Positions 3,501 through 32,111 of a stretch of 32,184 bases of DNA are shown here, in pieces. Numbering within the stretch: position 1 is the first letter of the stretch; each line of letters starts with the position of its first letter. Origin of the DNA: a virus; IMG/VR virus record IMGVR_UViG_3300010211_000004, positions 1 through 32,184 of that record, one strand, 5' to 3'. The notes under the pieces are model-generated. The model worked only from the letters and a program-made list of their open reading frames with translations. It was not told where the DNA came from and searched no databases. Position numbers and translations under genes: made by a program.

Positions 3501-4603
3501 TGCCTGAAGGATTCCTCGGCCCGCAGCGCCTTGACTTCAGAGGTCTCAAGCCGAACACCGACTTCGCGCATCGCCGACCCCGCCGATCCGGCTGCCGCCT
3601 CGGTGACCGCCAGATACCCGGACAAGTTGCTGAGGACGGTCGACATGCGCCCGGCTTGGTCGATACCGACGAGCTGGGCGGTGAGGTACTGGCGCTGCGA
3701 ATCGTCCAAGGTCTCGAAGGCGCGGGCGACGTCGAGGAAGATGTCTTTGCCGGAGCGCAGTGCCCCGTTGGCGTCACGTTGCGAGACGCCGATCTGAGCG
3801 AGCGCCTCGGTAACGGGCTTGCTGTCGTCGGTCAGCTTCTGCAGGCCGGTCTTGAGGGCGTCTGCGGCCTCGTTGCCGGAACGGAAGACCTCGATCACCG
3901 GTGTCAGCAGCCCGGCGGTCTCGTTGAGGTCGAATCCCATCTGGTTGGCAATGGGCGAGAGCGCGGCCATGCCCTGGGCCAGCTGCTCGACATCGGTCGC
4001 GTAATTGTTGCTGACCTCGTTAAGCAAGTCGACAACGTGCGCAGCCTCGGTCGCCGGGGCCTTGAACCCTTTGAGAATCGAGACCAGCAGCTCGGACGAC
4101 CTGGACGCCTCCATCTGGCCCGAGATGGCCATGTTGATGGCATCCTGGACCAGGGAATAGGCGGCCTGGGCGTCATAGCCGGACTGTTTGAATTCTGCCA
4201 TCGAAGTCAGCAGCTTCTGCCCGTTTTGGCCGTAGGCAATAGCTACCTCGTCGAGCTGACCGGCATAGCCTTCTGCCGCCTCACGCCCGCCATCCATAAC
4301 CTTCGCAAGGTCGGCGATCGCAGCCTCGTTTTCCGTCGATGCTTGCTGGAAGCGCCCCGCCAGAGCCGTGACGATGGCCGTGATCCCACCGGCTAATCCC
4401 AGCGCGGTTTTTGCCGCGTCTGCCATTGGCTGGGTCGACTCATCGACCGCTTGGCCGAAGCGCTCCATGCCGCTTGCAGCGTTGGTGAACTCGCTGGTTG
4501 TGAGCGCTTTTTTGAGGTCCTGAACCTTGCCGTTGACCCCTTCGATGTTTTTGGTCGCGAGGTCGAGCGCTTCGAGAATGATCTGGACTTTAAGCTCGGA
4601 CAT
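569..4603 (-). CDS. Tail tape measure protein (TP901 type)
   Basis: This 1344-residue protein sets tail length and passes through the tail tube during DNA ejection. Residues about 80-340 match the TP901 tape-measure core: alanine-rich helices, the stretch DLNETAGLLTPVIEVFRSGNEAAD, and a repeated pattern of LAQGMAALSPIANQMGF type. Hydrophobic segments around 530-640 resemble the membrane-active stretch of other tape measures. The last 600 residues are long coiled coils rich in A, E, K, D and Q. It starts at ATG 4603, five bases after the previous stop, with a GGGGTAAAG leader, and it is coupled to the next gene at 565. It is by far the longest gene in the window, as expected for a tape measure. 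Confidence 0.95.
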   Translation of the reverse strand: MSELKVQIILEALDLATKNIEGVNGKVQDLKKALTTSEFTNAASGMERFGQAVDESTQPMADAAKTALGLAGGITAIVTALAGRFQQASTENEAAIADLAKVMDGGREAAEGYAGQLDEVAIAYGQNGQKLLTSMAEFKQSGYDAQAAYSLVQDAINMAISGQMEASRSSELLVSILKGFKAPATEAAHVVDLLNEVSNNYATDVEQLAQGMAALSPIANQMGFDLNETAGLLTPVIEVFRSGNEAADALKTGLQKLTDDSKPVTEALAQIGVSQRDANGALRSGKDIFLDVARAFETLDDSQRQYLTAQLVGIDQAGRMSTVLSNLSGYLAVTEAAAGSAGSAMREVGVRLETSEVKALRAEESFRQLSVTLGNQFRNEITGLISATGELAAAFDSATQGGGLEPLISALRPQITAVETLVRAMAGNLEEALAGVDWTPLVNGLRSVSTEFGEAFSQLTEGVDLTTVEGLRTVLDGVVVILGKLSEWIGGVIDGLGPLMGALNALFGVVSQGLPEISRLVGQVQGLALSANTLIPIIANVGSTVFDAIGTIAEFTFKITLAVTALRLLQSAGVPLGPMFASLTTALRALGPTVLTVVGRLTGLTVALKSVLAIGTFVIFEKLGTWLREASQAAEDFTHPLYLIKEALEGVDWVFSQLSESYRVQLEAEKNLQSTQERTAEILKRISDETGIVVTSMKELDQAVKDGKIVWDETAQTWTTAKEKIKDFSAANRDMIEASDQQLAIAEALREQFAALGLVYDSTTGKIGDQTKAVEQSADQIEKETDRRVTHLRLLQLEAEARGDTATAARIAAQINDESIAGLERLLGVKEAELAALRQTAQAKLDEADADAIRTAAELSGIDATSEAVAKKEQEIIKIREAIAEKQKELSLSAQVVQHQEQIVDVNQRVSDSADAGADSNEKLADSMESVGDAADVMRKMVDDALASLAQYSKGAAAAVDEIVHSADNWINKVGQIRQLEPSDFISTDGLDAAKQELADLTAAADAAQASADAMRKSMTKAFDWWGPFYDGLSAIKELEAGLLRAEAAAKRLEIAAAELDGKLSDLADAFDAGDVGLTDYLATLEQLRRQYSRLSDDDLDALEDKIRDVKDALKDQADTAVDGLNSWRVKLAGIYDQEIQIQQLNWQQDRLEAELALQEARRNGNAAEIAALQEQLRLIDEYYQYQLKVAAEQEAADAIAAADEAAAEAARFAGLSDEERKYEETLARLKARLAQAILDQDAVLQASILAQIEAEKARHQQVLADLEKETKAKQSAANDSGSTESSSATQSARAASAAVLPVRVVEVRVSMPSGDSGTVQVVEGSESTLEALLKSLEKSKLVA

Positions 4604-4607
4604 CGCT

Positions 4608-5012
4608 TTACCCCAAAATCCACAGCCGCAGCGTTACCCGATAGGACGGGTCGGCTGCGGAGTCGGCGGTGTCGTTGACGCGAAACTGGACCGGATCGGG
4701 GTCGATGACGTCGGTGTCGTAGCGGAAACGGACGCTGTAGGTCGCGCCCAAACGCGCCAGGGTCAGGACCAGGCCGGGCACGTTGGCCCAGGCGGACAGG
4801 GCGTCGAGGGTAGCGCGCGGGATCCAGCTCGCAGCGGCGGACCAGGCGCGCAGGGTCATCGGGCGGTATTGAAGTGTGCCCTCCTGGATGAGTGCCGCGC
4901 CGGTCAAACCAGGCTCAACGGACTGACGGACCAAGGTCGCGTGCTCGTCCTCCCAATAGAGGTCGTCAGGGAGTTCGAGGGCGGCGGCGGTGTCGATGCG
5001 GGTGAGAATCAT
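4608..5012 (-). CDS. Probable tail protein, unknown family
   Basis: This 134-residue protein is encoded directly upstream of the tape measure gene, which starts five bases after its stop. The sequence is W- and L-rich with no signal peptide or membrane segment. It ends with a beta-strand-like YRVTLRLWILG. I do not recognise the family. In many siphoviruses this slot holds tail assembly chaperones made with a ribosomal frameshift. This protein does not look like one, and there is no second overlapping frame. The ATG at 5012 overlaps the TGA of a seven-codon ORF (MADQAL), which may be only a coupling leader. A tail role is inferred from position. Confidence 0.7.
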   Translation of the reverse strand: MILTRIDTAAALELPDDLYWEDEHATLVRQSVEPGLTGAALIQEGTLQYRPMTLRAWSAAASWIPRATLDALSAWANVPGLVLTLARLGATYSVRFRYDTDVIDPDPVQFRVNDTADSAADPSYRVTLRLWILG

Positions 5013-5076
5013 AAAGCTTGGTCGGCCATGGGGATCTCACCCCGTTGAAATGGGCAGCAGATTGCGAAGCATTTTG

Positions 5077-5412
5077 CTAAATACCTGCAAACATACTGTT
5101 ATAGATTTCGACGACGATCGGCACCAAAATCGCAACGATCACTGCCCACAAAATGCGATTCCGCTCGCTTTGCTCTCGGTTGACGTGCGCGTTCAGATCC
5201 CGCCCGACTGCATCCACGCCGGACTCGATGCGTTGCTGCGTTTCGCGGACGTCACTTAGAGCGTCCTCGAAAATTCTGACTGCCTCACGGGTCACTGCCA
5301 TGTCCTGCGCAATGCGCGCAACATCACGCGCGACTTCGCGGCTTGCGGCTTCCTGCTGCTCGACCAATAGTTCCAGGCGAGCGACGCGATGTGTGATGTT
5401 GTCATCAGTCAT
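5077..5412 (-). CDS. Coiled-coil protein with C-terminal membrane anchor (XhlA-like lysis protein)
   Basis: The 111-residue protein has a soluble, heptad-like region over residues 5-80 (repeated A/V/I and R/E/D spacing). A single hydrophobic segment follows at about 87-104 (ILWAVIVAILVPIVVEIY) with a very short tail. This topology is that of XhlA-type haemolysin or accessory holin proteins, and it sits directly after the endolysin. The ATG at 5412 overlaps the endolysin stop by eight bases, so the two are translated together. I infer that it helps permeabilise or anchor at the inner membrane during lysis. A spanin is an alternative, but there is no lipobox and no embedded second frame that I can see. 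Confidence 0.7.
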   Translation of the reverse strand: MTDDNITHRVARLELLVEQQEAASREVARDVARIAQDMAVTREAVRIFEDALSDVRETQQRIESGVDAVGRDLNAHVNREQSERNRILWAVIVAILVPIVVEIYNSMFAGI

Positions 5413-6013
5413 CGCGCGGATACCCCGCCTCCAAGGACTGTTCAGCTAACCGCGCATAGGCGGCAATCTCGCGGGCGCGATCGAGGCCGTTGACGATGCG
5501 GCGCGCGTGGAAATAGTCTGAGTGGGCGCTGTTGAGGTAGTCGCCGAGCTTGCGGCCGGTGAAGAGCCCGTCGCGCATACCGAAATGCATAATCTGATAG
5601 GCGGTCGCGGGTTCTAGCGCGAGATCTGGTGTCCCGGTCAGATCGATGCCGAGCAGGTCGCTAAAGCGCGCGTAGTTATCGTGCCCGGTGATCTGGACGT
5701 ACCCGCGCCCCCGGTAGAGATAGCCGTCGCCATCGGCCTCCGGGGTGTTCCCCAGACGCGCGGCGAGACGTCCGGTGTCGTACTTGTTGAAGTAGCGCCT
5801 GCCGCCATATTCGGTGATCGGCTGCATAGTTGCCGCCGTCTCATGCCATGCGGTGGCGAGCATGTAGGCAGCATGCGTGAGCGGGAGAGCATCCCCGGCC
5901 ATGCGCGTGATCAGGAACTCGATGCCTTCGACCTGCCCCTGTTGGAGACGCCCGAAGCGAGCGCGCCAGGCGTTGAAGAAGGCGGAGAGGTCGATGGCGA
6001 CGAGCGTCTTCAT
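5405..6013 (-). CDS. GH19-type endolysin
   Basis: This 202-residue peptidoglycan hydrolase belongs to the chitinase/lysozyme glycoside hydrolase 19 superfamily. The family hallmarks are visible. AWHETAATMQPITEYG (residues 55-70) holds the likely catalytic Glu58 and the second acidic residue Glu68. GYLYRGRGYVQITGHDNY (97-114) is the usual substrate-cleft strand. There is no N-terminal signal peptide, so release should depend on the holin gene upstream. The start at 6013 is fixed by a GGAGGTG ribosome site nine bases upstream and by a TGATG overlap with the Tad2-type gene. Length is typical for single-domain phage endolysins. Confidence 0.93.
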   Translation of the reverse strand: MKTLVAIDLSAFFNAWRARFGRLQQGQVEGIEFLITRMAGDALPLTHAAYMLATAWHETAATMQPITEYGGRRYFNKYDTGRLAARLGNTPEADGDGYLYRGRGYVQITGHDNYARFSDLLGIDLTGTPDLALEPATAYQIMHFGMRDGLFTGRKLGDYLNSAHSDYFHARRIVNGLDRAREIAAYARLAEQSLEAGYPRDD

Positions 6014-6276
6014 CAGCGCAGCACCTCCCAGTCATCAGCAAGAATGTCGGTCTGAGACGCCAGCCACGGCACAATCTGGCCGTCAGCAGTGCGCATATCG
6101 ATATGCGCGTGGTAGTTGATCTCCGTTCCTTCTGGGTAGATGCCAAGCAGCGGTGGGCGATTCACATGGAAGGTTGAGCCTGGAACCAAGAACACGAACA
6201 TACCCTTCCCGTTCCATCCCGAACGAGAGACTCGATGCCCCTCTTTCAATGCGGTAAGTGCGTCACTGAAGTTCAT
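6013..6276 (-). CDS. tad2: DUF2829 / Tad2-type anti-Thoeris protein
   Basis: The 87-residue sequence is a full-length match by eye to the DUF2829 family: MNFSDALTALKEG at the start, RSGWNGKGMFVFLVPG (18-33), NRPPLLGIYPEGTE (39-52), TADGQIVPWLASQTD (63-77) and a closing DDWEVL. Members of this family, named Tad2 in Bacillus phages, bind and sequester the cyclic ADP-ribose isomer signal made by Thoeris ThsB TIR proteins. The conserved binding-pocket stretches all appear present. It is translated from an AGAGG site 8 bases before ATG 6276 and overlaps the endolysin start as TGATG. The family assignment is firm. The anti-defence function is transferred from studied members and is untested here. 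Confidence 0.85.
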   Translation of the reverse strand: MNFSDALTALKEGHRVSRSGWNGKGMFVFLVPGSTFHVNRPPLLGIYPEGTEINYHAHIDMRTADGQIVPWLASQTDILADDWEVLR

Positions 6277-6288
6277 ACCGATGCCTCT

Positions 6289-6804
6289 TCATGGTTGTTT
6301 CGCTGATAGCAATTTGTTCTTCTGAGCGGATCCTGCACTCGAACCGAAGAAGTAAGAAACAACGCTCGTGGCCATGCCGCCTAGAGCGCCGAGCAGGATA
6401 TAGAGCGCCTCTTTGGACCCATCCGGGAGCGGGAAGAAGAGCAACGCTGCGAAGGCGACAAAGAAACCGAGAAGAACCAGCGACCCGATGACCGCCGGGA
6501 CGTGATCCCCGGTTTCAATCTCTCGCCGCCGCGCGCTGTCGCGGTCGTCAGCAGCGATGCGTTCCAGATCAACATCAAGCGAGGCGAGCGTCTGCTGAAA
6601 TTGGATCTCAGCCTCTTTGATGCGCGCGAGAACTTCCGGATCGGCTCCAGAAATCACGGTGCCGAGGTCTGCGTCAGTAATGTCCCCTGTGCCGAGGACT
6701 CGTTGCGAGAGAATGCTGATTGCAGTACCCGCCAGCGGGCCTCCAAGTGCGGTGGCGAGCGTCGGTGCAACGGCGGCTACAGTTGCTTTCCAGTCAATGG
6801 CCAT
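6289..6804 (-). CDS. Three-transmembrane holin (GTA_holin_3TM type)
   Basis: This 171-residue protein is recognisable as the holin family first described in gene transfer agents. It opens MAIDWKATVAAVAPTLATALGGPLAG, has a soluble middle with DLERIAADDRDSARRRE (79-95), two hydrophobic segments at about 105-124 and 133-152, and ends YFFGSSAGSAQKNKLL. It should form inner-membrane lesions that release the endolysin encoded two genes downstream. An upstream in-frame ATG at 6954 would add 50 residues of arginine- and proline-rich sequence lying inside the preceding gene. I therefore chose ATG 6804, which matches the family start and overlaps the upstream stop by eleven bases. Confidence 0.9.
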   Translation of the reverse strand: MAIDWKATVAAVAPTLATALGGPLAGTAISILSQRVLGTGDITDADLGTVISGADPEVLARIKEAEIQFQQTLASLDVDLERIAADDRDSARRREIETGDHVPAVIGSLVLLGFFVAFAALLFFPLPDGSKEALYILLGALGGMATSVVSYFFGSSAGSAQKNKLLSAKQP

Positions 6805-7063
6805 GGGCTGACTCCTTGAAATAGCACCGCTCTTCATGCTCGGCCCGCTTGCCGGCATTGAAATTGGCAACCGGCCGGTGATACCCCATGACGCGGGTCC
6901 AAATTTCGCAAGGCGTGCGCTCTTCGTCCGGCGGCACGGGATCGTAGGCGGCACAAGTGCAATCGGCTGGAAAACTCCGACCGATCACGCACTCACCGCC
7001 GAGCTCACGGCCTTCGGTGTCGCGGATGAGCGTGAGTTGTCGACAGGGGAGTTTGGCGCTCAT
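6794..7063 (-). CDS. Small NrdD C-terminus-like protein
   Basis: This 89-residue protein has six cysteines (7, 25, 35, 37, 52, 80). Its C-terminal half, CEIWTRVMGYHRPVANFN then AGKRAEHEERCYF (52-82), resembles the C-terminal zinc and glycyl-radical tail of anaerobic class III ribonucleotide reductase. In NrdD a similar C...RVxGYxRPV...NxGK pattern carries the radical glycine, here matched by Gly60. No catalytic barrel is encoded nearby, so this cannot be a complete reductase. It starts at ATG 7063 with an ATGA overlap to the upstream minor tail gene and overlaps the holin gene by eleven bases. Role unknown. It could be a metal-binding structural or lysis accessory protein. The resemblance is a by-eye judgement. 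Confidence 0.7.
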   Translation of the reverse strand: MSAKLPCRQLTLIRDTEGRELGGECVIGRSFPADCTCAAYDPVPPDEERTPCEIWTRVMGYHRPVANFNAGKRAEHEERCYFKESAHGH

Positions 7064-7611
7064 GCGCGGGCTACCTCCACGGTGAGTGCGTGGTTGAGTT
7101 CTTGGAGCAAGATTCGCTCGAATCTGGCGTCTATCTCTGGCTCAAGCTCCTGAATGCGCCGAAGAATGGCGTCATGGATGGGCACGGTGACGACCTGTAC
7201 AGGCAGCCTTTGATCACCCATACGCTCAACGACCAGACCGGCCATGCGCCGACTGTTCCCCCAAGACCATGCCCCTTCGAACAGCCGCCGCCCGACCCGC
7301 GCGCCCTGCATGCGCCGGCTCCAACGAACGGTGCCCAGGTGGTGCGCCTGGATCTCATTGGTGCCGATCCAAATACGGATGGAGTCCTCGCGCAGAGTCG
7401 TTTGATAGCGCAGCAGCACCTTGAGTACCTTCTGGGACGTTCCCGCCGCCTGAGCAGCCTCGCGCAACACCTCTCGGCGCAGCCAAGGCGCAAACTTGGC
7501 GATCGCCCCTCGACGCGCGCGATCGACAGCCGCCGGCATGGCGGCCGTCTGCCGCTGCAGCCGATCTAAGCTGCCGTCGGCGCCGATGCGGATGTCGAGG
7601 GCAAGGCTCAT
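7060..7611 (-). CDS. Minor tail protein Z-like (tail completion)
   Basis: The 183-residue protein resembles the phage minor tail protein Z family (lambda gpZ is of similar length). It has an N-terminal helical region with repeated A/R (RQTAAMPAAVDRARRGAIAKFAPWLRREV), a central VLLRYQTTLREDSIRIWIGTNE segment, and a basic YxRRMQGARVG stretch. In lambda this protein acts at the head-tail junction end of the tail. It lies directly downstream of the tail tube gene, and its stop overlaps the next start as ATGA. The ribosome site upstream of ATG 7611 is weak. Family assignment is moderate because similarity is recognised only from general pattern and synteny. Confidence 0.7.
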   Translation of the reverse strand: MSLALDIRIGADGSLDRLQRQTAAMPAAVDRARRGAIAKFAPWLRREVLREAAQAAGTSQKVLKVLLRYQTTLREDSIRIWIGTNEIQAHHLGTVRWSRRMQGARVGRRLFEGAWSWGNSRRMAGLVVERMGDQRLPVQVVTVPIHDAILRRIQELEPEIDARFERILLQELNHALTVEVARA

Positions 7612-7625
7612 CCGGTAATCTCGGA

Positions 7626-8345
7626 TCAGCTCGCAGCTGAATGGAGCTTGATCTGATAGGGACCGCTCTTGCCGGTCGGGGTGATCAGCGTCCCCTTGAG
7701 GGTGATCGAGACCGGCTCGTTGCCGATCAGCGACAGCCCGCCGCTCGGCGAGACGTTGGCCTGGAAGATGTCGAACTCGACCTGCTCGCCGTTGAATCGG
7801 TTGACGCCGAACCCATGCATGCTGATCTGCAGCAGAGTGTCGGTGCCGGCGACGATGGTCTTGCCGGCCCGTGCCGACCAGCTGGCGGTCGCGGTTACCT
7901 CTCCGTCGGCGATGGTCAGGGACTTAAACAGCCCTCCGTCCATGCTGACCTCGTAGTCCGTTCCCTCGGTTTTGCCGGTGATGGCGAAGGCGGTCAAGTT
8001 GTTCTTGCCGATCGCCACCCATTTGCCCTGCAGGGCGGCGATGGTGATCGTCTGATCGGCGCCGGCGGCCTGGCTGTAGTCAGCCGGGCGGCCCAGCATG
8101 CCCATGCTGAGGATGTCCGGGTGCATCTCGTCGAGGGTGAACTCGATCTCGACCGGCTTGGGGATCTGGGCCGAATCGAGCGCCTGGCCGTAGGTGCTGG
8201 CCAGATAGCTGGTGCGGGTGACCGTGTCCGGATCCGGCTGGGTCAGGGTCAAGCTCGTCATGTTGGCCGCGTCCAGATAGCCAGTGCCGACGCCCGAGGT
8301 GAAGCGGTCGATGTAGGGGTTGAGTGCCAGGAGCAGTCCGGCCAT
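7626..8345 (-). CDS. Major tail tube protein
   Basis: This 239-residue protein is beta-rich and Gly/Thr/Ser-rich, with repeated short strands such as DYEVSMDGGLFKSLTIADG and VSITLKGTLITPTGKSGPYQ. There are no membrane segments. Length and composition suit a siphovirus tail tube subunit. It sits between the tail-terminator-type gene and the gpZ-like gene, the normal place for the tube protein. A good GAGAGGA site lies eight bases before ATG 8345, as expected for a highly expressed structural protein. I infer that it polymerises around the tape measure protein. Confidence 0.85.
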   Translation of the reverse strand: MAGLLLALNPYIDRFTSGVGTGYLDAANMTSLTLTQPDPDTVTRTSYLASTYGQALDSAQIPKPVEIEFTLDEMHPDILSMGMLGRPADYSQAAGADQTITIAALQGKWVAIGKNNLTAFAITGKTEGTDYEVSMDGGLFKSLTIADGEVTATASWSARAGKTIVAGTDTLLQISMHGFGVNRFNGEQVEFDIFQANVSPSGGLSLIGNEPVSITLKGTLITPTGKSGPYQIKLHSAAS

Positions 8346-8348
8346 GAT

Positions 8349-8816
8349 TCAGTCCTCTCGGTCTACGAAGTCGATGTCGATGGTGACGCTCGGCGTCAGC
8401 CAGTCGCTGGCGCTCGGACGCATGGGGATGGAGCGGGCGCTTTCGCGCAGGGCGACCACACCTGTGGTGGGCGGCCAGTCGGTTGGGCGCCGACGCAAGG
8501 CGCGATGGATGTCGGCCAGCAGTCGGCGGCAGACCTTGCGCCCATCGCCGCCGTCGAAGACGGTCCCCTCTAGGGTGTAGGTCTGGGTCCAGAGGAGCTT
8601 CGAGCTCTCTGGGATCTCGCGCGCGATAGCGTCTTCGTCGAGGATCAGCAGGGCCGGTGGGGGCGGCGGATCCGGCGCTTCGTCCAGCAGGTCGTCATTC
8701 TGCTCGGTGCCGACGTCGAGCCCGGCATCGGTGCGGTAGCCGTTGGCGATCTGGATTCCGGAAAGCCAGGCCACAAGCTGGTCGAGAATGATTTGGGATT
8801 GCGGGGTGTCGGCCAT
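8349..8816 (-). CDS. Tail terminator / minor tail protein (gpU-like position)
   Basis: The 155-residue protein starts MADTPQSQIILDQLVAWLSG. It has a proline run (PDPPPPP) near residue 50 and a C-terminal beta section ending VTIDIDFVDRED. Position between the head-tail joiner and the tube gene suggests a tail terminator or completion protein. Such proteins typically have an N-terminal helix followed by several strands, as predicted here. An upstream in-frame ATG at 8849 lies in the preceding gene. I chose 8816 because it overlaps the upstream TGA as TGATG. Function is by synteny, not by a strong motif. Confidence 0.75.
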   Translation of the reverse strand: MADTPQSQIILDQLVAWLSGIQIANGYRTDAGLDVGTEQNDDLLDEAPDPPPPPALLILDEDAIAREIPESSKLLWTQTYTLEGTVFDGGDGRKVCRRLLADIHRALRRRPTDWPPTTGVVALRESARSIPMRPSASDWLTPSVTIDIDFVDRED

Positions 8817-9133
8817 CAGGCACCCCCTCGCCGCACGACTAGCACCCACCAGGCGTCGAGCGGGCTATGTTTTTGGACGGCCCAAGTGTCGGAGTCGATG
8901 CTGATCGTGTCGCCACGCGCTGGGCTCCCAACCTCAGCGCGGGTGACGTGGATCTCGTGGCGCACCTCGATCAGACCGCCCTGCCCCACGCTCTCAGCCT
9001 CGGGCTCGTCGATGGCCGTCACGGGCACGCCGTCACCCTCGCCGCCGGGGCGGTAGAGGGCGGGAACGCCGAAGGCTTCTTGTTGCGCCTCGGCGAGATC
9101 CACGGCATTGGCGAGACGATTGCTCACGATCAC
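8816..9133 (-). CDS. Head-tail joining protein
   Basis: The 105-residue protein (MIVSNRLANAVDLAEAQQEAFGVPALYRPGG...) has the pattern of small phage head-tail joining proteins of the lambda gpFII type. An N-terminal helix with the FG.PA.YRP stretch is followed by strands ending DTISIDSDTWAVQKHSPLDAWWVLVVRRGG, and the domain closes with a W-rich edge. It overlaps both neighbours by a few bases: the capsid gene stop at 9130 and the next start at 8816. It probably caps the portal complex and accepts the tail. Confidence 0.75.
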   Translation of the reverse strand: MIVSNRLANAVDLAEAQQEAFGVPALYRPGGEGDGVPVTAIDEPEAESVGQGGLIEVRHEIHVTRAEVGSPARGDTISIDSDTWAVQKHSPLDAWWVLVVRRGGA

Positions 9134-10083
9134 ACCAGGGTCGCGAGGGCCGCCTGTTGCCAGTAGCCGTAGCCCACATTGCCGGAGGCATAGAGGCCGT
9201 ACTGGTGCACGCGCTCCTTGAATTCCAGCTCGGAGCCTTCAGCGATAGCAGAGACTTCGACCGGAACTTCCTCTTGCCGAATGAACGGCTTGACGTTGCC
9301 GTCCGTGCGGAAACCCGCAAGTTTTGTCGTCCAGTTCAGGCGCGGGTTGATTTGGATATTGAACTTGAAGCCGTCGGCGGCGGTGATGATGTTGGTTGCG
9401 CCCTGGGCGAGCGTGGGCGAACCGACGGCGGCAATCGCCGATTTCCAGAACGGCGTCGGGACCATGATTAAAAACTCGCGAGCGTTCTCGTTCATCGGCT
9501 CGCCTTGGTCGTCTTTGAAACCGAGAACGGCCTGGGCTAGCTCCAGGATGCAGTGCATCAGTTCTTCGGGCGACGGGGCTGTCGGGCTGCCATGGGCGGT
9601 GGCCGGGACCGGCAGCGCCGAGATGTCGATGCTCAGGTCGTTGCTCTGCACACCGCTGCTGCCCTCGCTGTGATCGGTGTCAAAGTAGCTTTGTCCGTCA
9701 TAGCAGGCGCTGGATTCAGCAGCGATGATGAGCGCAGACAACAGACGCGCCCAGTGAGCGTTGGCGCGGTCAACCTGCTCGGCAATGCGGATGAAAATCT
9801 GCATCGTCTTGTCGCGACGTAAGTCGTCGATCGAAATTTCCAGGGTGGACTCGAACGCCTTGTTTTTGATCGTGTATGCGTTGTCGCGCAACCCCTTTGC
9901 CAGGCGGCCGCCGACCCATTCGCGCATGGCGGGCGACATTCCGAGCCATTTGTACTCTTCGCCTGCCTGGTCGGACTGGAAGTAGTTGCTGAGCAGGATC
10001 GCCCAGCTGGCCGCGCCCTGTTCGAGTAAACGGAAATACTCGCCGATGATCGCGCGCGAGGAGAGAACGGATAGATTGCTCAT
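9130..10083 (-). CDS. Major capsid protein, Mu gpT-like
   Basis: This 317-residue protein matches the Mu-like major head subunit gpT family. It has SSRAIIGEYFRLLEQG near the N-terminus, the family signature WLGMSPAMREWVGGR (46-60), LRRDKTMQIFIRIAEQ and YDGQSYFDTDHSEG. The C-terminal part contains the structural stretches FLIMVPTPFWKSAI and FKFNIQINPRLNW. It forms the icosahedral shell with the decoration protein encoded just upstream. AAGGAG lies eight bases before ATG 10083. The family is normally found in Mu-like phages, yet the portal and terminase here are lambda-type, so the head module is mosaic. Confidence 0.92.
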   Translation of the reverse strand: MSNLSVLSSRAIIGEYFRLLEQGAASWAILLSNYFQSDQAGEEYKWLGMSPAMREWVGGRLAKGLRDNAYTIKNKAFESTLEISIDDLRRDKTMQIFIRIAEQVDRANAHWARLLSALIIAAESSACYDGQSYFDTDHSEGSSGVQSNDLSIDISALPVPATAHGSPTAPSPEELMHCILELAQAVLGFKDDQGEPMNENAREFLIMVPTPFWKSAIAAVGSPTLAQGATNIITAADGFKFNIQINPRLNWTTKLAGFRTDGNVKPFIRQEEVPVEVSAIAEGSELEFKERVHQYGLYASGNVGYGYWQQAALATLV

Positions 10084-13950: not shown

Positions 13951-15933
13951 CTACAAGATGTCGTAGCGGTTGCGAAGGGGGACAGGGACGGGGACGGGGC
14001 TAGTCGCGCGATCAAGGTTAGGAGCTGTTGGTGCGCCCTGCTGCTGACTCTTGAGTTCTGGGGCCGCGAACAGGTCCTGCTGCACCGGGCACAGTTCCTC
14101 TGAGAGCCGCTCCCAGTCGCGAACGCGCATGGCCTGGAGTTTGACGAGCCGCGACCCACCGATCCGTGGAGAGCCGCTCAGGTGTGCCAGCGCCCAGCAG
14201 TAGACGGCGGTGTCGATGGGCTCGTTGCGGGCATTGGGCTTGATCTTCTCCCAACGACCCGTATCGGGGTCGCGCCGCTCACTGGCCATGCCTTCATACC
14301 AACTATTGGGCAAACCGCTGGGCAGATGCCACCAGCGCTCTCGGGCTGACTGGCTGGGGGAAATGGCGAGGCGGTCGAGCAGCACGTCCTTGGCGATGTT
14401 GGTGTTGATCATGTGGTGGTGGCCGCCGTACTTAACCGGCCGTCCACGCCAGTTGACTTCGTGCGACTTTGGGGCGCTGATCAGGGGGACCGAGGAGGTA
14501 CTCGCACCCTTGGTCGGAATCCATCCATGCGTCACGCGCTCGTGGCAGGCGATGTAGACCTCGTTGGCCCAGTTGCCGGAGTCGACGCCATGGAGGCGGA
14601 TCGGCAGTTCTTGGCCGTATGGGTTGTGGATGGGCGTGTCGAGGTAGTCATGCAGGGCGACCCAGGTGTCTGGATCGATCGGGCTACCGACGGTGACGTG
14701 GTAGTCGACAACGTAGAGCTGGGGCGCCTTGGGTGTCGATCCGCGACCGAGACCGAGGATGAGCGTTTCGAGTCTGTCGCCCTGGCAATCGGTCGCGGCC
14801 AGCAGTAGCAAGCACTCTTTGGGCGGCTCGCGCATGGACCAGCCCTCGGCCATGGCGGCCAGATCCCCTTGATCGAGCCCGCCGGGAGGCTCATAAGGGA
14901 TTGCGAGCGAGGTCGAGACGAAGGCTTTGAGCAGGGCTGGGTCGTTCTGGGATTCGGCGTGCTCGCGGTACAGATCGAGCCATGTGCGGCCGAGCCCGAC
15001 CGGGGTGTAGAGGCTCGGTAGGCGGTAGCTGTGATGCCAGGTGCGCTCGGGGTATTTGGCCCGCCAGTCGAGCGCAGCCAGCATGTCGGTCTTGTCGGCG
15101 TGCTGGATGGCGTGGCCGCAGTGCTCACACAGGTACTCGCCGGAGGGAAGGAGCTGCTCGATCACCAAAACCTGCATCTCGTCGCACTTAGGACAGGGCA
15201 GGTAGCATTCGCGCTGATCTCCGGCCAGATATTCGCGCCATATGAGCGAGGCCCCCATGATCTTCTTGGGGCTTGAACAGTGGTAGATCTTGCGCAGCTT
15301 GCCGAAGCTGTCGGCACGTCGGTGCAGGGTCTTGAGCGGATCGCCTTCGGCCCCCTTCAGTTCTTCATAGCTATCGACCTCGTCGGCCAAAACGTAGCGG
15401 GCAGAGTACATGCCGAGCGTGGTCGCTGCGGCCGCGTGGGAGACGATCAGCCAGCCGCCGGGGAATTTGACGCGGCTCATGGTGTTGGAAGATTCGCGGC
15501 GCCGGCTAACGTTGATGCTGGCGGCTAGTTCTGGGGTGGTCTCCACTAGAGGATCGAAGCGGGTCAGTTTCCAGGCGTCGCCGAGTTCCTTGGTGGGCTG
15601 GCAGACGATGACGGTAGCGGGGTCGTGGTCGATGATGTAGCCGAGGAAGTTGTTCATCGACTCGGTCTTGACCGTCTGAGTGCCGGCGACGACGGTCACG
15701 ATCTCGGCGCCGCTGTGCGGGCTGAGGCTTTCCATGATCGCGCGAGCCGGTGGATTGCGGTCGGTGCTCCATCGACCTGGTTCTTTGCTTGTCTCCTGCG
15801 GCAGGATGCGGTGCTGATCCGCCCATTCCCACACTGACAACCGTTCCGGAAGATGCCAACCGCGCGCCCAGCCATTGCAGTACGCAGCCTGGCCGCGTGC
15901 CTCGAGTTGTGCGATCGCGACGGCGCCAAGCAT
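13951..15933 (-). CDS. Terminase large subunit (lambda gpA family)
   Basis: This 660-residue packaging ATPase-nuclease matches the GpA family. Visible elements are LSVWEWADQHRILPQETSKEPGRW (32-55), a Walker A-like VVAGTQTVKTES (81-92), a Walker B YVLADEVDSYEE (180-191), and the zinc-like LPCPKC...YLCEHCGH pair. The C-terminal nuclease part includes TDCQGDRLETLILGLGRG. It should cut concatemeric DNA and pump it into the head through the portal. It starts at 15933, overlapping the terminase small subunit stop as TGATG, so the two subunits are co-translated. Length is normal for the family. Confidence 0.95.
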   Translation of the reverse strand: MLGAVAIAQLEARGQAAYCNGWARGWHLPERLSVWEWADQHRILPQETSKEPGRWSTDRNPPARAIMESLSPHSGAEIVTVVAGTQTVKTESMNNFLGYIIDHDPATVIVCQPTKELGDAWKLTRFDPLVETTPELAASINVSRRRESSNTMSRVKFPGGWLIVSHAAAATTLGMYSARYVLADEVDSYEELKGAEGDPLKTLHRRADSFGKLRKIYHCSSPKKIMGASLIWREYLAGDQRECYLPCPKCDEMQVLVIEQLLPSGEYLCEHCGHAIQHADKTDMLAALDWRAKYPERTWHHSYRLPSLYTPVGLGRTWLDLYREHAESQNDPALLKAFVSTSLAIPYEPPGGLDQGDLAAMAEGWSMREPPKECLLLLAATDCQGDRLETLILGLGRGSTPKAPQLYVVDYHVTVGSPIDPDTWVALHDYLDTPIHNPYGQELPIRLHGVDSGNWANEVYIACHERVTHGWIPTKGASTSSVPLISAPKSHEVNWRGRPVKYGGHHHMINTNIAKDVLLDRLAISPSQSARERWWHLPSGLPNSWYEGMASERRDPDTGRWEKIKPNARNEPIDTAVYCWALAHLSGSPRIGGSRLVKLQAMRVRDWERLSEELCPVQQDLFAAPELKSQQQGAPTAPNLDRATSPVPVPVPLRNRYDIL

Positions 15934-22283: not shown

Positions 22284-22507
22284 CAGGCGGCCTCTTCGGT
22301 GGAGTTGGAGGATGAAGCTTCCTCCTGGCTAAAGATCTCGTCCAAAGACACGCCGTAGAAGTCGCGCAGTCGACGAGCCAAAGCCAAGCTCGGCTCTTGC
22401 AGGCATCGCTCAATGCGCGACAGGTTCCCTGGGCTTGTTTCAACAAGCTGAGCCGCCTGCTCAAGAGTCAAGCGACGCGAAGTACGAGCATGTTTCAGGA
22501 TTTTCAT
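22283..22507 (-). CDS. Cro-like XRE regulator, first gene of leftward operon
   Basis: The 74-residue protein MKILKHARTSRRLTLEQAAQLVETSPGNLSRIERCLQEP... has an XRE-type helix-turn-helix at residues 14-36 (TLEQAAQLVETSPGNLSRIE) and then YGVSLDEIF, typical of phage Cro/CI-type proteins. It is transcribed away from the CI-like gene, from a start twelve bases beyond operator O1. It is likely to repress the repressor gene and tune its own operon during lytic growth. The leader GGGGCAAG is poor. Confidence 0.87.
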   Translation of the reverse strand: MKILKHARTSRRLTLEQAAQLVETSPGNLSRIERCLQEPSLALARRLRDFYGVSLDEIFSQEEASSSNSTEEAA

Positions 22508-26835: not shown

Positions 26836-27013
26836 CACCATGGCCTCCCGAGCACGAATTCCCCCAGCCGAAGAACGCGCCGCCATTGCGTGGTGGAACG
26901 GCCTGAGCAAGCAGAGCCGACGGACGATGTTGAGCTCACCGAACGTGAAGGGCGATCCGACGGCCTGTCGGTGCTGGATCGTCTTCGGCTCGACGCAATA
27001 CAAAGAGGTTTGA
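26822..27013 (+). CDS. Small protein of unknown function
   Basis: The 63-residue protein MSTHDTMASRARIPPAEERAAIAWWNGLSKQSRRTMLSSPN... has an internal EERAAIAWWNGLSKQSRR helix and ends with CRCWIVFGSTQYKEV. AAGGAG lies nine bases before ATG 26822. It is a typical small early phage protein, and no family is recognised. The three bases after its stop are followed by the GTG of the next gene. Confidence 0.62.
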   Translation: MSTHDTMASRARIPPAEERAAIAWWNGLSKQSRRTMLSSPNVKGDPTACRCWIVFGSTQYKEV

Positions 27014-27511: not shown

Positions 27512-28999
27512 ATGCAGCGCTGCCTCCAATTCGGTCACGAACTCGTCGTCGACAATTTCGCCGGCGCGGGCGGAGCCAGTTGCGGGATCGAGCAGGCCCT
27601 TGGACGCCCGGTCGATCTGGCCATCAATCACGATGCGCTCGCCATCTCCGTCCACACCGCCAATCACCCCGAAACCGAGCACGCCCTTGCCGACGTCTGG
27701 GACATCGACCCGAGTAGCGCCGTGCGCGGCCAACCCGTTGGCCTCTGCTGGTTCAGCCCAGACTGCCGCCATCACAGCAGGGCCAAGGGCGGGCGCCCCG
27801 TCTCCAAGAGCGTTCGCGGACTCGCTTGGGTCGCCGCCAGATGGGCCGCCACGGTCAAGCCGCGCATCATCGTGCTCGAGAACGTCGAAGAATTCGAGGA
27901 CTGGGGCCCACTGATGAAGGATGGCCTCGGCCGCACTCTGCCCGACCCGGAGCGGAAGGGGCAGACATTCCGCTCATTCGTCCGTGCGCTCACGCGCCAC
28001 GGCTACCGCATCGACTGGCGATCACTGCGCGCCTGTGACTATGGGGCCCCAACCATCCGCCGACGCCTGTTCCTCATCGCGCGGCGTGATGGCCTCCAGA
28101 TCCAATGGCCGAAGCCGACCCATGGCGACCCGGCGGCGCGAGAAGTTCGGCGCGGACGGCTCGCGCCGTGGCGCACGGCCGCGGAATGTATCGACTGGTC
28201 GATCCCCTGTCCTTCGATCTTCGACCGCCCACGCCCGCTGGCCGATGCGACACTGCGCCGCATCGCGCGCGGCGTCGGCCGGTTCGTGCTCGAGGCGACT
28301 GATCCTTTCCTGGTCGAAACACCGAGCGGTCAGATCGCCGCCACCTTGATTCAGGTCGGGTACGGCGAGCGGCCCGGGCAGGCTCCACGCACCCTCGACC
28401 CAAACCGACTACTCGGAACCGTCGTTGCCGGCGGAGTCAAACATGCCCTCGTCGCCGCCTTCCTGAACAAGCACTTCACGGGAGTCATCGGCGCCGACCT
28501 GCGCAATCCGCTGCCGACCGTCACCGCAACAGACCACAACGCCCTGACGGCGGTCACCCTGGTCAACCTCAAGGGCGTCGAGCGCGGCGGGCGAGACCCG
28601 CGAGAACCAATGCCGACCGTCTGTGCCGGCGGTACTCACATTGCCCTCGTCTCTGCATTCCTGGCCAAGTATTACGGCCAGGGAACCGGCCAATCGCTGG
28701 ACGAACCAATCCACACCATCTCGACCCGCGATCGATTTGGCCTCGTGACCGTCCTGATCGACGGCTCGACTTACGCGATCGCCGACATCGGAATGCGGAT
28801 GCTTCAGCCACATGAACTCGCCGCCGCGCAAGGGTTCCCGGATGACTACCAATTCGTCAGCGTCAACGGGCGCCGAATACCCAAGACTCATCAAGTGCGG
28901 CTCATTGGCAATAGCGTGTGCCCACCTCTAGCGAGAGCGATCATTGAAACCAACTTCCGCCATGAGCGCCAATTCATGGAAGCTGGAGAGGCTGCTTGA
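27512..28999 (+). CDS. C5-cytosine DNA methyltransferase (phage type)
   Basis: The 495-residue enzyme should methylate cytosine in DNA using S-adenosylmethionine. Motif I is VDNFAGAGGASCG (13-25). Motif IV is WFSPDCRHHSRAKGG (80-94), with nucleophile Cys85 in PDC rather than the common PCQ. Motif VI is VLENVEEF (121-128). RRRLFLIARR is motif VIII, and IGNSVCPPLARAI near the C-terminus is motif X. The region between VIII and X has two related repeats, AGGVKHALVAAFLNKHF and AGGTHIALVSAFLAKYY, in the expected target-recognition area. No partner restriction enzyme is encoded here, so self-DNA protection is the likely role. Confidence 0.93.
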   Translation: MQRCLQFGHELVVDNFAGAGGASCGIEQALGRPVDLAINHDALAISVHTANHPETEHALADVWDIDPSSAVRGQPVGLCWFSPDCRHHSRAKGGRPVSKSVRGLAWVAARWAATVKPRIIVLENVEEFEDWGPLMKDGLGRTLPDPERKGQTFRSFVRALTRHGYRIDWRSLRACDYGAPTIRRRLFLIARRDGLQIQWPKPTHGDPAAREVRRGRLAPWRTAAECIDWSIPCPSIFDRPRPLADATLRRIARGVGRFVLEATDPFLVETPSGQIAATLIQVGYGERPGQAPRTLDPNRLLGTVVAGGVKHALVAAFLNKHFTGVIGADLRNPLPTVTATDHNALTAVTLVNLKGVERGGRDPREPMPTVCAGGTHIALVSAFLAKYYGQGTGQSLDEPIHTISTRDRFGLVTVLIDGSTYAIADIGMRMLQPHELAAAQGFPDDYQFVSVNGRRIPKTHQVRLIGNSVCPPLARAIIETNFRHERQFMEAGEAA

Positions 29000-29157
29000 T
29001 GAATAACGAAAGCCTGGATAGCACTCGGCTCCCCTATGACCTACAAGCGGCAGATCTAGGTTCCCCATTGCTGGACAACAATCAGTCACTGATGACTGAG
29101 GAGCCCTGTTATGAGAAGCGGCGACATTTTCGCAGGAACAGAACACCAGAAGCCTAA
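28999..29157 (+). CDS. Possible small ORF coupled to methyltransferase
   Basis: The 52-residue ORF MNNESLDSTRLPYDLQAADLGSPLLDNN... starts as ATGA on the methyltransferase stop. It overlaps the next zinc-ribbon gene by 47 bases in another frame, and its last 15 residues (EKRRHFRRNRTPEA) look like a shadow of that gene. It may be a real short protein or a remnant. Confidence 0.4.
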   Translation: MNNESLDSTRLPYDLQAADLGSPLLDNNQSLMTEEPCYEKRRHFRRNRTPEA

Positions 29158-29317
29158 GCGCAAAGCTCCCCGCGTAATGGCACACGTTGCCGACGCAGGG
29201 GCAGAAGCAATCAGATTCGAGTGTGACAGATGCGGATGGGACAGCGACTGGCTGGTTAATAATTTCACGCCGAGCGAGGCTAAGCGCGGGATTCCGTGCG
29301 AGATGTGCAACACATAA
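29111..29317 (+). CDS. Small zinc-ribbon protein
   Basis: The 68-residue protein has FECDRCGWDSDW (36-47) and CEMCNT at the C-terminus, the two Cys pairs of a zinc ribbon. It begins MRSGDIFAGTEHQKPKRKAPRV. GAGGAG lies seven bases before ATG 29111. The AT content of this and the following genes is higher than in the rest of the window. It is probably a small nucleic acid or protein adaptor. Function unknown. Confidence 0.7.
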   Translation: MRSGDIFAGTEHQKPKRKAPRVMAHVADAGAEAIRFECDRCGWDSDWLVNNFTPSEAKRGIPCEMCNT

Positions 29318-29332
29318 CACCGGCGCCTAAAG

Positions 29333-29533
29333 ATGAAACTCTTTTCTTTCGATAGATACCAGAATGGCGTGAAAATGGCTGAAGGGGTTGCCGTCCACGC
29401 TAATAACCTCGTCGACGCGACTTCGAAGGCGAATGAGCTGGCAGCGGAAACATACAGCCATACGTTCACACTGCAGTTTGCTGGCGTTTCGTTCTGCCCG
29501 GAGGCATGTCAGTGTACGAAATGCAGGCAATAA
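29333..29533 (+). CDS. Small protein of unknown function
   Basis: The 66-residue protein MKLFSFDRYQNGVKMAEGVAVHANNLVDATSKANELAAETYS... ends with Cys-rich CPEACQCTKCRQ, which could hold a metal. The leader is weak (CTAAAG). It overlaps the next ORF by about 28 bases. It is part of the AT-richer series downstream of the methyltransferase. No family is recognised. Confidence 0.6.
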   Translation: MKLFSFDRYQNGVKMAEGVAVHANNLVDATSKANELAAETYSHTFTLQFAGVSFCPEACQCTKCRQ

Positions 29534-29742
29534 GAGAGCGGCATGTTAAAGCAACGTCCACCGCAAAGAAGGTGCTGAAGAAGGGCGACCGAATCACGGT
29601 TACGAAATGCCCTGGAACAAAGCGCTGGATCATCTTCGACCACTGGGAAGGAAACGAGATCATTTCTGTCTCCGGTGAAGGAGAGTACGCCGCTACCAGC
29701 ATTTCGCGGCTAAACGGTGAGCCTGTGAATTTCAACGGCTAA
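29506..29742 (+). CDS. Small protein of unknown function
   Basis: The 78-residue protein MSVYEMQAIRERHVKATSTAKKVLKKGDRITVTKCPGTKRWI... looks like a small basic beta domain with the K-x-G-D-R-I-T-V-T turn. GGAGG is one base before ATG 29506, so the functional start may be GTG 29512, seven bases from that site. It overlaps the previous gene. Its stop is followed by the first copy of the repeated leader. Function unknown. Confidence 0.6.
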   Translation: MSVYEMQAIRERHVKATSTAKKVLKKGDRITVTKCPGTKRWIIFDHWEGNEIISVSGEGEYAATSISRLNGEPVNFNG

Positions 29743-29769
29743 ACCGGACGCGCGATCAGAGGTAACGGA

Positions 29770-30003
29770 ATGAGCGACGACAGCGAATCGCGGCTAGGGC
29801 GGACGCTTAGAGTACAAGTTGACGCATCAGGGATCTGTTCAGCAGATGCCATGCGCTTAGTTTTTGACGAACTCCTGCGTGACTTTCCTGATTGGGATGG
29901 GTACATATTTTTTGGAGGAAATAAATTCGCCGGGGTACGAGTGCAGATGCTGACGGACATCGGCACAGGAGAGCTGCGCTGTGAAATTACACCAGATACT
30001 TAG
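29770..30003 (+). CDS. Small protein with cassette-like leader
   Basis: The 77-residue protein MSDDSESRLGRTLRVQVDASGICSADAMRLVFDELLRDFPDW... has an alpha-beta pattern with strands VRVQML and GELRCEIT. Its leader GAGGTAACGGA and first ten codons closely match those of the gene at 30051, but the rest differs. Base composition is AT-richer than the rest of the phage. Function unknown. Confidence 0.62.
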   Translation: MSDDSESRLGRTLRVQVDASGICSADAMRLVFDELLRDFPDWDGYIFFGGNKFAGVRVQMLTDIGTGELRCEITPDT

Positions 30004-30050
30004 ATGCCTAACGCCCAGGCTAAACCGGCCGCGCACACCGAGGTAACAGA

Positions 30051-30305
30051 ATGAGCAACGACGGTGAAACGCGGCTCGGTTTTGAGCCGCTTGTTAGCGA
30101 TTTCACCTTAGATGAAGTGCAGCTCCCCTATGACCAGTGGGATAAGCTGCAGCGCGACAGGCTGCCACTGCTAAGCGACGAGGCACGATTATGGCTAGGC
30201 AGATGGAACGCATGGGATTTTGCTTGCAGCCCGATGGACGACGATAAGCGCAGATTGATCCGGCTTGGGCACTATCTCGGTTGGTACCACTCTTCTGCTC
30301 GCTAA
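30051..30305 (+). CDS. Small protein with cassette-like leader
   Basis: The 84-residue protein MSNDGETRLGFEPLVSDFTLDEVQLPYDQWDKLQRDRLPLL... shares its leader and first ten residues with the preceding gene. VQLPYDQWDKL recalls VRLPYIEWDRL in the next gene. The rest is a small W/D-rich helical domain. It ends LGHYLGWYHSSAR. No family is recognised. Confidence 0.62.
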   Translation: MSNDGETRLGFEPLVSDFTLDEVQLPYDQWDKLQRDRLPLLSDEARLWLGRWNAWDFACSPMDDDKRRLIRLGHYLGWYHSSAR

Positions 30306-30337
30306 CGCCCGGATAACCGGGCCGCACGGAGTAACGT

Positions 30338-30667
30338 ATGAATGAGCTACGACCTTTGAATGCGGCTCCAGTTGAGTCGATTGTTATACCTAGGGTCGGT
30401 GACATCTGGGAGTTACGGCTGCCCGGAAAACGCAAGAAGACGAAAGAGATTGGTCGGATCTACAGGGTATGGATGTCAAGTAAAGATGGTCCAGACGTTC
30501 GTCTTCCATATATCGAATGGGATAGGCTGCCAAAGGGGAGATACACCGGCATAAGAGCGAAATGGCTCCTCAAATATGGGCGACGGTTAAGCACGAAGGC
30601 TCAGAGAGACGCGAAATTTGATGCGCGTTGTCGGGAGATACGAACCGCAAAGGACATGGCGGTATAA
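30338..30667 (+). CDS. Small protein of unknown function
   Basis: The 109-residue protein MNELRPLNAAPVESIVIPRVGDIWELRLPGKRKKTKEIGRIYRVWM... has an SH3-like strand pattern (GDIWELRL, IGRIYRVWM) with a basic C-terminus. VRLPYIEWDRL resembles a segment of the previous protein. It starts at ATG 30338 after the third leader copy and is the last gene before the excisionase-integrase end. Function unknown. Confidence 0.62.
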   Translation: MNELRPLNAAPVESIVIPRVGDIWELRLPGKRKKTKEIGRIYRVWMSSKDGPDVRLPYIEWDRLPKGRYTGIRAKWLLKYGRRLSTKAQRDAKFDARCREIRTAKDMAV

Positions 30668-30759
30668 CAGTGCAATAGGCTGCATTCCGTCATTATTGAA
30701 ATAGGCTGACCGGTCAAAGAGACACACGTGATGACCGCACACATCGAGATCGACGCCTG

Positions 30760-31038
30760 ATGTTCCGCTGGGTACGACTGAAAAAAGCCGCCATCGAAAC
30801 CGGCTACTCGGAAGGTGCAATCCGTGCCAAGATCGCCGATGGCACCTGGCCAGAAGGGGAGGTCTGGACGCGCGCCCCCGATGGTCGCATCTTAATCAGC
30901 GTCGACGGATACAATCTATGGGTAGAAACGGCACGGGGGTCCGCCCCGCCAGCGAGTCCTCGATCGAAATCACCTTCCCCTATCGCGGCGAGCGCTGCCG
31001 CGAACGCATCAAGCTCAAGCCCACCCCCGCTAACCTGA
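30760..31038 (+). CDS. Excisionase-like DNA-binding protein
   Basis: The 92-residue ORF opens FRWVRLKKAAIETGYSEGAIRAKIADGTWPEGEVW (residues 2-36), a winged-helix pattern like small phage excisionases that bend DNA for prophage excision. RILISVDGYNLWVE follows. The last 40 residues overlap the integrase start in another frame and are Ser/Pro/Ala-rich. They may be a dispensable tail, as most excisionases have 60-80 residues. It directly precedes the integrase, as such genes usually do. ATG 30760 lacks a good ribosome site and overlaps the stop of a nine-codon ORF (MTAHIEIDA) as TGATG. Confidence 0.72.
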   Translation: MFRWVRLKKAAIETGYSEGAIRAKIADGTWPEGEVWTRAPDGRILISVDGYNLWVETARGSAPPASPRSKSPSPIAASAAANASSSSPPPLT

Positions 31039-32111
31039 AGCGCGCGGAACGCCACCGCGCAGCCATCCTCTTGGCCATCGAAAATGGCACCTTCGACTAC
31101 GCCGTGACCTTCCCAGACTCTCCGCGAGCCTCGAAATTTTGCGCACCCGATCAGATCATCACCCTCGAACACTATCTTGACCGCTGGCTCGAGCGCGTGA
31201 GACCAGGCCTGAAATCCAGCACTTACGCCACCCATCGCCGGATCGTCAGGCGCATCAACCAGGCCCTTGGCGGCCAACGCCTGTCCGATCTGCGATGGAG
31301 AAACGTACGGGAATGGATCGAGAGCCAGGACGTCGGCCAGAAGACCGCCCGCAACCTGCTGTCCGTGCTGCGTAGCGCCTTGAAGGATGCCGTTGACGAC
31401 GACATCATGGACGCCAACCCACTGGCCGATCGCACGATCCGCCGCACGACGACAACCCCCGCCACGGATGAAATCGATCCCTTCAACGCCGAGGAACGCG
31501 CGGCCATCCTCGCGGCCGCCGACGGCCAGGAGCGCAACTTCATCCAATTCGCCCTCTGGACCGGACTTAGATCGTCCGAGCTATGTGCTCTCGACTGGAG
31601 CGACGTGGATTTGAGGAACGGCGTCGTGCGAGTCACGAAGGCCCTGACGCAGGACGCGAAAGAAGCGGAAATCCCCAAGACAGCGGCCGGGAGACGCGAC
31701 GTCAAGCTCTTGGAGCCAGCCCTAGCAGCCTTGCTGGCCCAGCGGCCACATACAGAACTGTTCGGCGCTGCCGTCTTCCACAACCCACGGACGGACCAGC
31801 GCTGGCCGGGAGACCTGACCTTCCGCCAAGGAGCCTGGAAACGGATTCTGCGCCGCGCCGGCGTGCGCTATCGCTACCCGTACCAGCTTCGGCACACCTA
31901 CGCATCCATGATGCTCATGGCCGGCGAAGCGCCGCAATGGGTCGCGACCCAACTGGGGCACAAGGATTGGGCTTTCACGATGAGGACCTACGCCCGCTGG
32001 ATCGCGAGCGACACCCCGAACGCAGGAGACAAAGCCGTGTACGCTTGGGGAAAGAGAGAGAAAAAGCTGGCAAATACGCTGTCATTACGGACGAAAACAG
32101 ACCACAAATGA
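30918..32111 (+). CDS. int: Tyrosine-type phage integrase (arm-binding DUF3596)
   Basis: This 397-residue recombinase has an N-terminal arm-binding domain of DUF3596 type (ITFPYRGERCRERIKLKPTPANLKRAERHRA, 18-48) and a SAM-like core-binding domain around 80-180. Its catalytic domain has Arg218 (TGLRSSEL), Lys254, Arg325 (PYQLRHTYAS), His348 (LGHKDW) and nucleophile Tyr358 (MRTYARW). The first position of the HxxR box is Tyr322, which is normal for this subgroup. It starts inside the excisionase ORF and ends about 50 bases from a tRNA 3' end, so integration at that tRNA is expected. Confidence 0.95.
   Translation: MGRNGTGVRPASESSIEITFPYRGERCRERIKLKPTPANLKRAERHRAAILLAIENGTFDYAVTFPDSPRASKFCAPDQIITLEHYLDRWLERVRPGLKSSTYATHRRIVRRINQALGGQRLSDLRWRNVREWIESQDVGQKTARNLLSVLRSALKDAVDDDIMDANPLADRTIRRTTTTPATDEIDPFNAEERAAILAAADGQERNFIQFALWTGLRSSELCALDWSDVDLRNGVVRVTKALTQDAKEAEIPKTAAGRRDVKLLEPALAALLAQRPHTELFGAAVFHNPRTDQRWPGDLTFRQGAWKRILRRAGVRYRYPYQLRHTYASMMLMAGEAPQWVATQLGHKDWAFTMRTYARWIASDTPNAGDKAVYAWGKREKKLANTLSLRTKTDHK

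Follow-up and report, generated by a model that had tools for sequence, protein, structure and literature searches.

The small-gene stretch and its setting

The window, i.e., the whole stretch of DNA analyzed here, is a viral record of 32,184 bases that is classed with IMG/VR. Its genes include those for tail tape measure, head, portal, terminase and primase proteins and a DNA methyltransferase, followed at the right end by excisionase and phage integrase genes. Between the methyltransferase gene (end at 28999) and the excisionase gene (start at 30760) lies a stretch of small open reading frames (ORFs). As the original prediction had noted, this region is AT-richer than the rest: GC content is 0.52-0.56 in the four 500-base intervals from 29001 to 31000 and mostly 0.60-0.68 elsewhere, with comparably low values in a few other intervals (0.538 at 22501, 0.558 at 6001, 0.562 at 27001). 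The stretch and its right flank contain the following features:

29737-29812, no strand: leader 1 (attC-A), a degraded attC-like copy, 82% identical to leader 2 over 62 nt; nearest scanner site at 29730-29843, score 10.3
29759-29762, plus: Shine-Dalgarno-like GAGG of ORF1, by position
29770-30003, plus: ORF1, 77 aa, no family; ranked first among the six frames by codon usage, with a small margin (-0.17 vs. -0.24)
30006-30099, minus (canonical top strand): attC-B, candidate site of 94 nt; score 19.3, DNA fold z -3.5/-3.6
30012-30305, plus: predicted cassette 2, 294 bp, attC-B then gene 2; ends GTTAGCG (30093) and CGCTAAC (30300), 7/7 complementary
30040-30043, plus: Shine-Dalgarno-like GAGG within attC-B, by position
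30051-30305, plus: ORF2, 84 aa; ATG in the predicted terminal loop of attC-B, stop codon TAA as the final codon of predicted cassette 2
30300-30389, minus (canonical top strand): attC-C, candidate site of 90 nt; score 13.1, 22.0 bits on the minus strand with covariance model R2
30306-30667, plus: predicted cassette 3, 362 bp, attC-C then gene 3; ends GTTATACC (30383) and GGTATAAC (30661), 8/8 complementary
30328-30331, plus: Shine-Dalgarno-like GGAG within attC-C, by position
30338-30667, plus: ORF3, 109 aa, no family; start within attC-C, stop codon TAA at the predicted cassette end
30661-30668, no strand: last core sequence, GGTATAAC; the best site to its right, 30662-30768, scores 5.3
30760-31038, plus: excisionase (flank; phrog_9668, E 6.4e-23)
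30918-32111, plus: phage-type tyrosine integrase carrying an arm-binding domain, distinct from integron integrases (flank; TIGR02249 28.4 bits, cut-off 265)

The excisionase ORF runs ~120 bases into the integrase ORF, which lies in another frame, and a similar overlap is seen at two loci around related integrases (L002, L003). Across the 32,184 bases, no integron integrase was detected (TIGR02249, E ≤ 1e-5). In MR13 and H4907, whose integrases are 52.0% and 48.9% identical to that of the window, the methylase gene ends only ~210-250 bases before the integrase; for this reason the small-ORF stretch looks, from the gene maps, like an accessory insertion. In the relatives L155 and L157, its position is occupied by other genes of unassigned function.

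Leaders 1 and 2 (29737-29798 and 30018-30079) align without gaps over 62 nt at 82% identity and form a repeat family of two copies only. Three near-copy leaders had been proposed; the third (30306-30340) lies outside the family and is no near copy, matching the others only weakly, through the cores, the Shine-Dalgarno (SD) motif and the ATG, in the common order core-SD-ATG-arm. The first ten residues said to be common to two genes are indeed alike, MSDDSESRLG and MSNDGETRLG being identical at 7 of 10 positions.

None of the three ORFs matches a family in Pfam or NCBIfam (E limits 1 and 0.1); in PHROGs and PADLOC, the only matches are weak ones of ORF1 (E 0.13 and 0.04), and the AlphaFold2 model of ORF3 is unusable (pLDDT 46). 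DNA relatives of the region were found neither in phages nor in plasmids, searches with single leaders returned short chance matches only, and no other phage turned up that shares these leaders. Close relatives of ORF2 and ORF3 were not found in viral_contigs, nor was a relative of ORF3 in plasmids. A scan against Rfam gave nothing relevant, its two matches being far under the gathering scores. Each ORF is stop-free and the best of six frames on phage codon usage, and bodies 2 and 3 have at least two stops in every minus frame; the plus-strand ORFs are likely the coding ones.

Candidate attC sites in the leaders

Sites were sought with a custom scanner, which combines the cores R'' (RYYYAAC) and R' (GTTRRRY) with an arm stem. 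It also returned such sites in four integron-bearing records (Shewanella phage M16-3, Vibrio phage p16, a P1 phage and a plasmid); these records carry no attC annotation, and the sites are scanner picks chosen by the analyst. Within 28901-31000, leaders 2 and 3 give the two highest scanner scores (19.3 and 13.1). The original prediction had seen no attC-like ends, which is contradicted by the attC-type cores and stems at 30006-30099 and 30300-30389. Both sites contain AAC and GTT, and on the plus strand one core per site (GTTAGCG in attC-B, CGCTAAC in attC-C) deviates from the consensus at outer positions, as do two sites of L013. In both, the stem also has unpaired spacers and, on one arm, extrahelical bases. 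The left copy is degraded: in attC-A, the right core is changed to CTTAGAG, the spacer and left core seen in leader 2 are unmatched (sequence compared by eye), and folding is not above that of shuffles. The same holds for the folding of attC-C in isolation.

Lone attC-like sites are common by chance. Scores of at least 13.05 occurred in 49 of 400 shuffles, of at least 19.3 in 2 of 400, and both in 1 of 400; the whole window contains eight sites of at least 13.05 on the plus strand and ten on the minus strand, attC-B and attC-C included. A covariance model, R2, was trained on the arms of 29 attC-type sites, none of them in the window and five from the viral loci L026 and L029. Its sole match in the window is 30300-30389 (22.0 bits, minus strand), with an E value of 0.017 over the window and 0.13 over 244,575 bases, and it matches nothing in 80 viral loci (702,482 bases, E ≤ 10). 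R2 fails to detect the strongly folding attC-B (30006-30099) and, among its own training sites, all five of L016. With filters off, the match to attC-C is lost as well, which was tentatively put down to a hit-length limit.

Orientation of the sites and position of the gene starts

The direction of an attC site is set by unpaired features, and its bottom strand is recombined about a thousandfold better (PMC8946536). Orientation in the window was judged against 29 unannotated scanner picks from L009, L010, L011, L013, L014 and L016, with the weaker picks of those arrays excluded. A core position matrix, calculated with the own locus left out, matched the gene direction in 27 of these 29 sites, both errors falling in L016. 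Read on the gene (plus) strand, the window sites score -21.2 (attC-B) and -17.8 (attC-C) with this matrix. Extrahelical bases lie mainly on the left arm in 22 comparison sites, mainly on the right in three and equally on both in four; in both window sites they lie mainly on the right (attC-B three right and one left, attC-C two right and none left). On the minus strand, the core of attC-C is followed after 8 nt by an extra C and after 6 more by an extra A, the same spacing as in L013:16733-16792. Core sequence and extrahelical bases hence both suggest that attC-B and attC-C face opposite to their genes. This is not the arrangement of a usual cassette, in which the gene runs in the direction of the attC top strand and the attC lies 3' of the gene.

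If the sites are inverted, cassettes 2 and 3 would therefore each consist of an attC followed by a gene, with SD motif and ATG inside the attC. The minus-strand crossover G|TTRRRY corresponds to TAA|C on the plus strand and is predicted at 30011/30012, 30305/30306 and 30667/30668. The stop codons of ORF2 and ORF3 are the last three bases of the predicted cassettes, and that of ORF1 ends eight bases before the predicted crossover. In the fold of attC-B, the ATG is unpaired with a probability of 0.95 (terminal loop) and the SD motif is partly open (0.50). The SD motif of attC-C is paired in the isolated site (0.07 unpaired) and open in a longer stretch (0.72).

Predicted cassette boundaries and the pair test

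The cassette boundaries were deduced from the inverted attC orientation. The ends of both complete cassettes are fully complementary (7/7 and 8/8), as reported for the R''/R' cores of 51 of 58 saliva cassettes (PMC4909258). An 8-mer end within 15 nt of the stop, as in cassette 3, arose in 7 of 20000 shuffles, and this 8-mer has a single forward copy in the window. To the right of 30668, the scanner finds no convincing attC that would close the array. The description given beforehand of the interval 29733-30345 is partly confirmed, with the corrections that the feature extends to 30668 and that its first leader is a degraded copy.

A pair was defined as two sites that score at least 13.05 on the same strand at a distance of 80-1500 bases, with facing cores complementary at 7 of 7 positions; the threshold was set post hoc, just below the weaker window site. 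The window region passes, compared to none of 3000 dinucleotide shuffles. Among controls totaling 426,272 bases, read on both strands, the only pairs are formed by three consecutive sites in Tetrasphaera phage TJE1, at its left end. These are presumably the three-site cluster of attC sites lacking an integron integrase (CALIN) reported for TJE1 in PMC9892861, whose section 3 gives no coordinates. None of 85 control loci (1,559,434 bases, both strands) passes. Of these, 80 are new, namely those listed among at least 120 stretches matching an SD-ATG scan, and five (L002, L003, L008, L012, L017) were already part of the 426,272-base set; L011 was left out of this null, as it carries a reported CALIN. 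Around the SD-ATG pattern, 13 of the 80 loci reach attC-like scores of 12.2-12.7, 12 of them in near copies of one sequence, and these scores were taken as chance. Lower thresholds admit pairs in the 85 loci: one at 12, 13 (in five loci) at 11, and 376 (in 54 of 85) at 7. At a threshold of 14, the window pair is lost. Regarding sensitivity, the test finds 4, 19, 4 and 4 pairs in four arrays and none in the reported CALIN at L009:14400-17100. Applied to six loci around related integrases (L002, L003, L155-L158), it reveals an array in none.

Similar sites in other viral loci

A scan of viral_contigs for the core-type pattern yielded nine loci; the pattern was read on both strands, and the scan is therefore not biased toward one gene direction. 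The sites of four loci (L026, L029, L031, L033) were examined further; the other five have no pair. In L026 and L029, sites form pairs whose ends are complementary, and at all five sites the attC direction opposes that of the ORFs. L031 and L033 show the usual attC direction, with a doubtful second L031 site scoring -3.0 in the core matrix. Further pattern scans of viral_contigs found no locus, and the sole match of the pattern scan in genome_contigs, L004, was judged by eye to be due to chance.

In the IMG/VR contig L029, three consecutive attC-type sites surround small genes at 13977-14671, adjoining a carbohydrate esterase gene (PF03629). The gene at 14059-14217 has its ATG in the right core (14059) and a GGAG upstream within the site; the other L029 gene and the L026 genes start after the site. 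The IMG/VR contig L026 has two attC-type sites at 4170-4526, and an ORF on the minus strand (4172-4435) reads through the second, which encodes its C-terminus. A DUF1660-like assignment of the L026 gene was discarded, with no match in Pfam. Contig codon usage favors the stated strand for all four small genes tested, two each from L026 and L029, and the stated frame for three; a fifth test was circular, the gene being in the training set.

Single attC-type sites are located directly 3' of genes in the viral contigs L031 (2104-2175) and L033 (245-337). The L031 gene matches DUF2806 and, weakly and under the cut-off, Abi_alpha. L016 (KX853513.1, Virus Rctr41k) encodes, within 4680-9434, an integron integrase above the TIGR02249 cut-off (383 bits), together with five attC-type sites and four complementary cassette pairs, and is apparently an integron in a phage genome; neither “Virus Rctr41k” nor KX853513.1 appears in the main text of PMC9892861.

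Interpretation

We consider it probable, at roughly 0.72, that the repeated leaders are attC sites and that the stretch is a remnant integron cassette cluster (CALIN) with inverted cassettes in a temperate phage. The cores, complementary ends, stems, orientation signals, SD and ATG positions and stop codons can be read directly from the DNA. The cluster would comprise two complete cassettes (30012-30305 and 30306-30667) and a degraded one at the left. With each gene opposite to the usual attC direction, the attC would come to lie 5' of its own gene and supply the SD motif and the start codon; the N-termini would be alike because the alike right attC arms are translated. The cassettes might have been inserted by the integron integrase of a host cell, which would recognize the sites, and might be transcribed by the phage operon running toward xis-int and translated from the attC loop. 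The minimum for a CALIN is two attC sites (PMC9892861), and the window has two close ones, ~200 bp apart, provided that the sites are attCs, with no integron integrase in a record that may be incomplete. A complete integron would have intI and attI adjoining the array; no integron integrase above the cut-off is encoded in the record. The label “cassette-like” of the original prediction is supported, more literally than it was meant, by the resemblance of the leaders to attC sites. Its proposal of homologous recombination that exchanges bodies behind a shared leader finds no support: the predicted crossover (TAA|C) coincides with the left boundary of each leader, and leader and body would therefore move together. 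Alike attC sites within one array are usual in chromosomal integrons (PMC9892861, section 3.1).

An unlikely alternative is that each site is the attC of the upstream cassette in its usual orientation, whose start codon and first 14-15 codons became fused in frame to the next inserted cassette. The right-hand GTT is in frame with the ORF at both sites, and the bodies lack an ATG of their own near the 5' end, both of which speak for such a fusion. However, the core sequence and the extrahelical bases point in the opposite direction, and the covariance model matches attC-C on the minus strand. The leaders could also represent a duplicated hairpin that serves translation and not recombination, with bodies that diverged or were exchanged by homologous recombination. 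Such a hairpin would fit the 82% identity of leaders 1 and 2 with their conserved SD motif and ATG, the strong fold of attC-B and a record that has no integron-type recombinase above the cut-off, but it predicts neither the complementary segment ends (30093/30300 and 30383/30661) nor attC cores and extrahelical bases at attC spacing, and we regard it as quite improbable.

Against chance resemblance combined with one local duplication stand the two consecutive segments with complementary ends, the match of the covariance model (attC-C) and the same geometry in L026 and L029. While the frequency of lone attC-like sites and the post hoc threshold speak for it, we hold this explanation to be very improbable.

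Comparison with known systems

Phage-borne attC clusters have already been published, and the window cluster as such would be a further member. Seventeen phage CALINs were reported, and five of six attC sites tested recombined (Qi et al. 2023, PMC9892861). Like these, the window is phage DNA with a probable cluster of attC sites, no integron integrase and short genes of unassigned function; unlike theirs, its genes would oppose the attC direction and start within the attC. Divergent attC directions are mentioned for one phage in the same source (PMC9892861), whose main text does not contain the phrase “start codon”. The inverted orientation is the unusual part of the window cluster. If this build is real, it shows a route of cassette expression outside the integron and provides a simple rule for spotting such genes in viral contigs. 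Moreover, the N-terminal likeness of adjacent small phage genes may then stem from a recombination site and not from common descent of the proteins.

A tentative and rather doubtful generalization is a class of phage-borne integron cassettes, inverted and very compact, whose attC would combine the roles of recombination site, ribosome-binding site, 5' leader and coding sequence for the N-terminus. If true, a cassette could be translated in any phage operon without integron promoter or attI leader, and phages would draw small proteins from host integrons. Inverted phage cassettes with a gene start within the attC were not found in the literature searched, most subscription papers being outside its scope.

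Single elements of this build have parallels in other systems. A translation start within the attC is shared with the attC-borne short ORFs that aid translation (PMC8876359), but those are separate and act by termination-reinitiation, whereas the attC ORF of the window would be the N-terminus of the gene itself. The reverse integrons of Treponema and others share an unusual direction; there, however, the reversal concerns the integrase gene and not how genes are oriented to their attCs (PMC7691350; PMC6557892; PMC4909258). Genes read against the array are described for the single inverted cassette genes symE and sRNA-Xcc1 of Xanthomonas (PMC12444791), and a promoter read against the array for a toxin-antitoxin cassette (PMC11014356). 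In contrast to these three examples, both complete cassettes of the window are predicted to be inverted, with the start codon within the attC.
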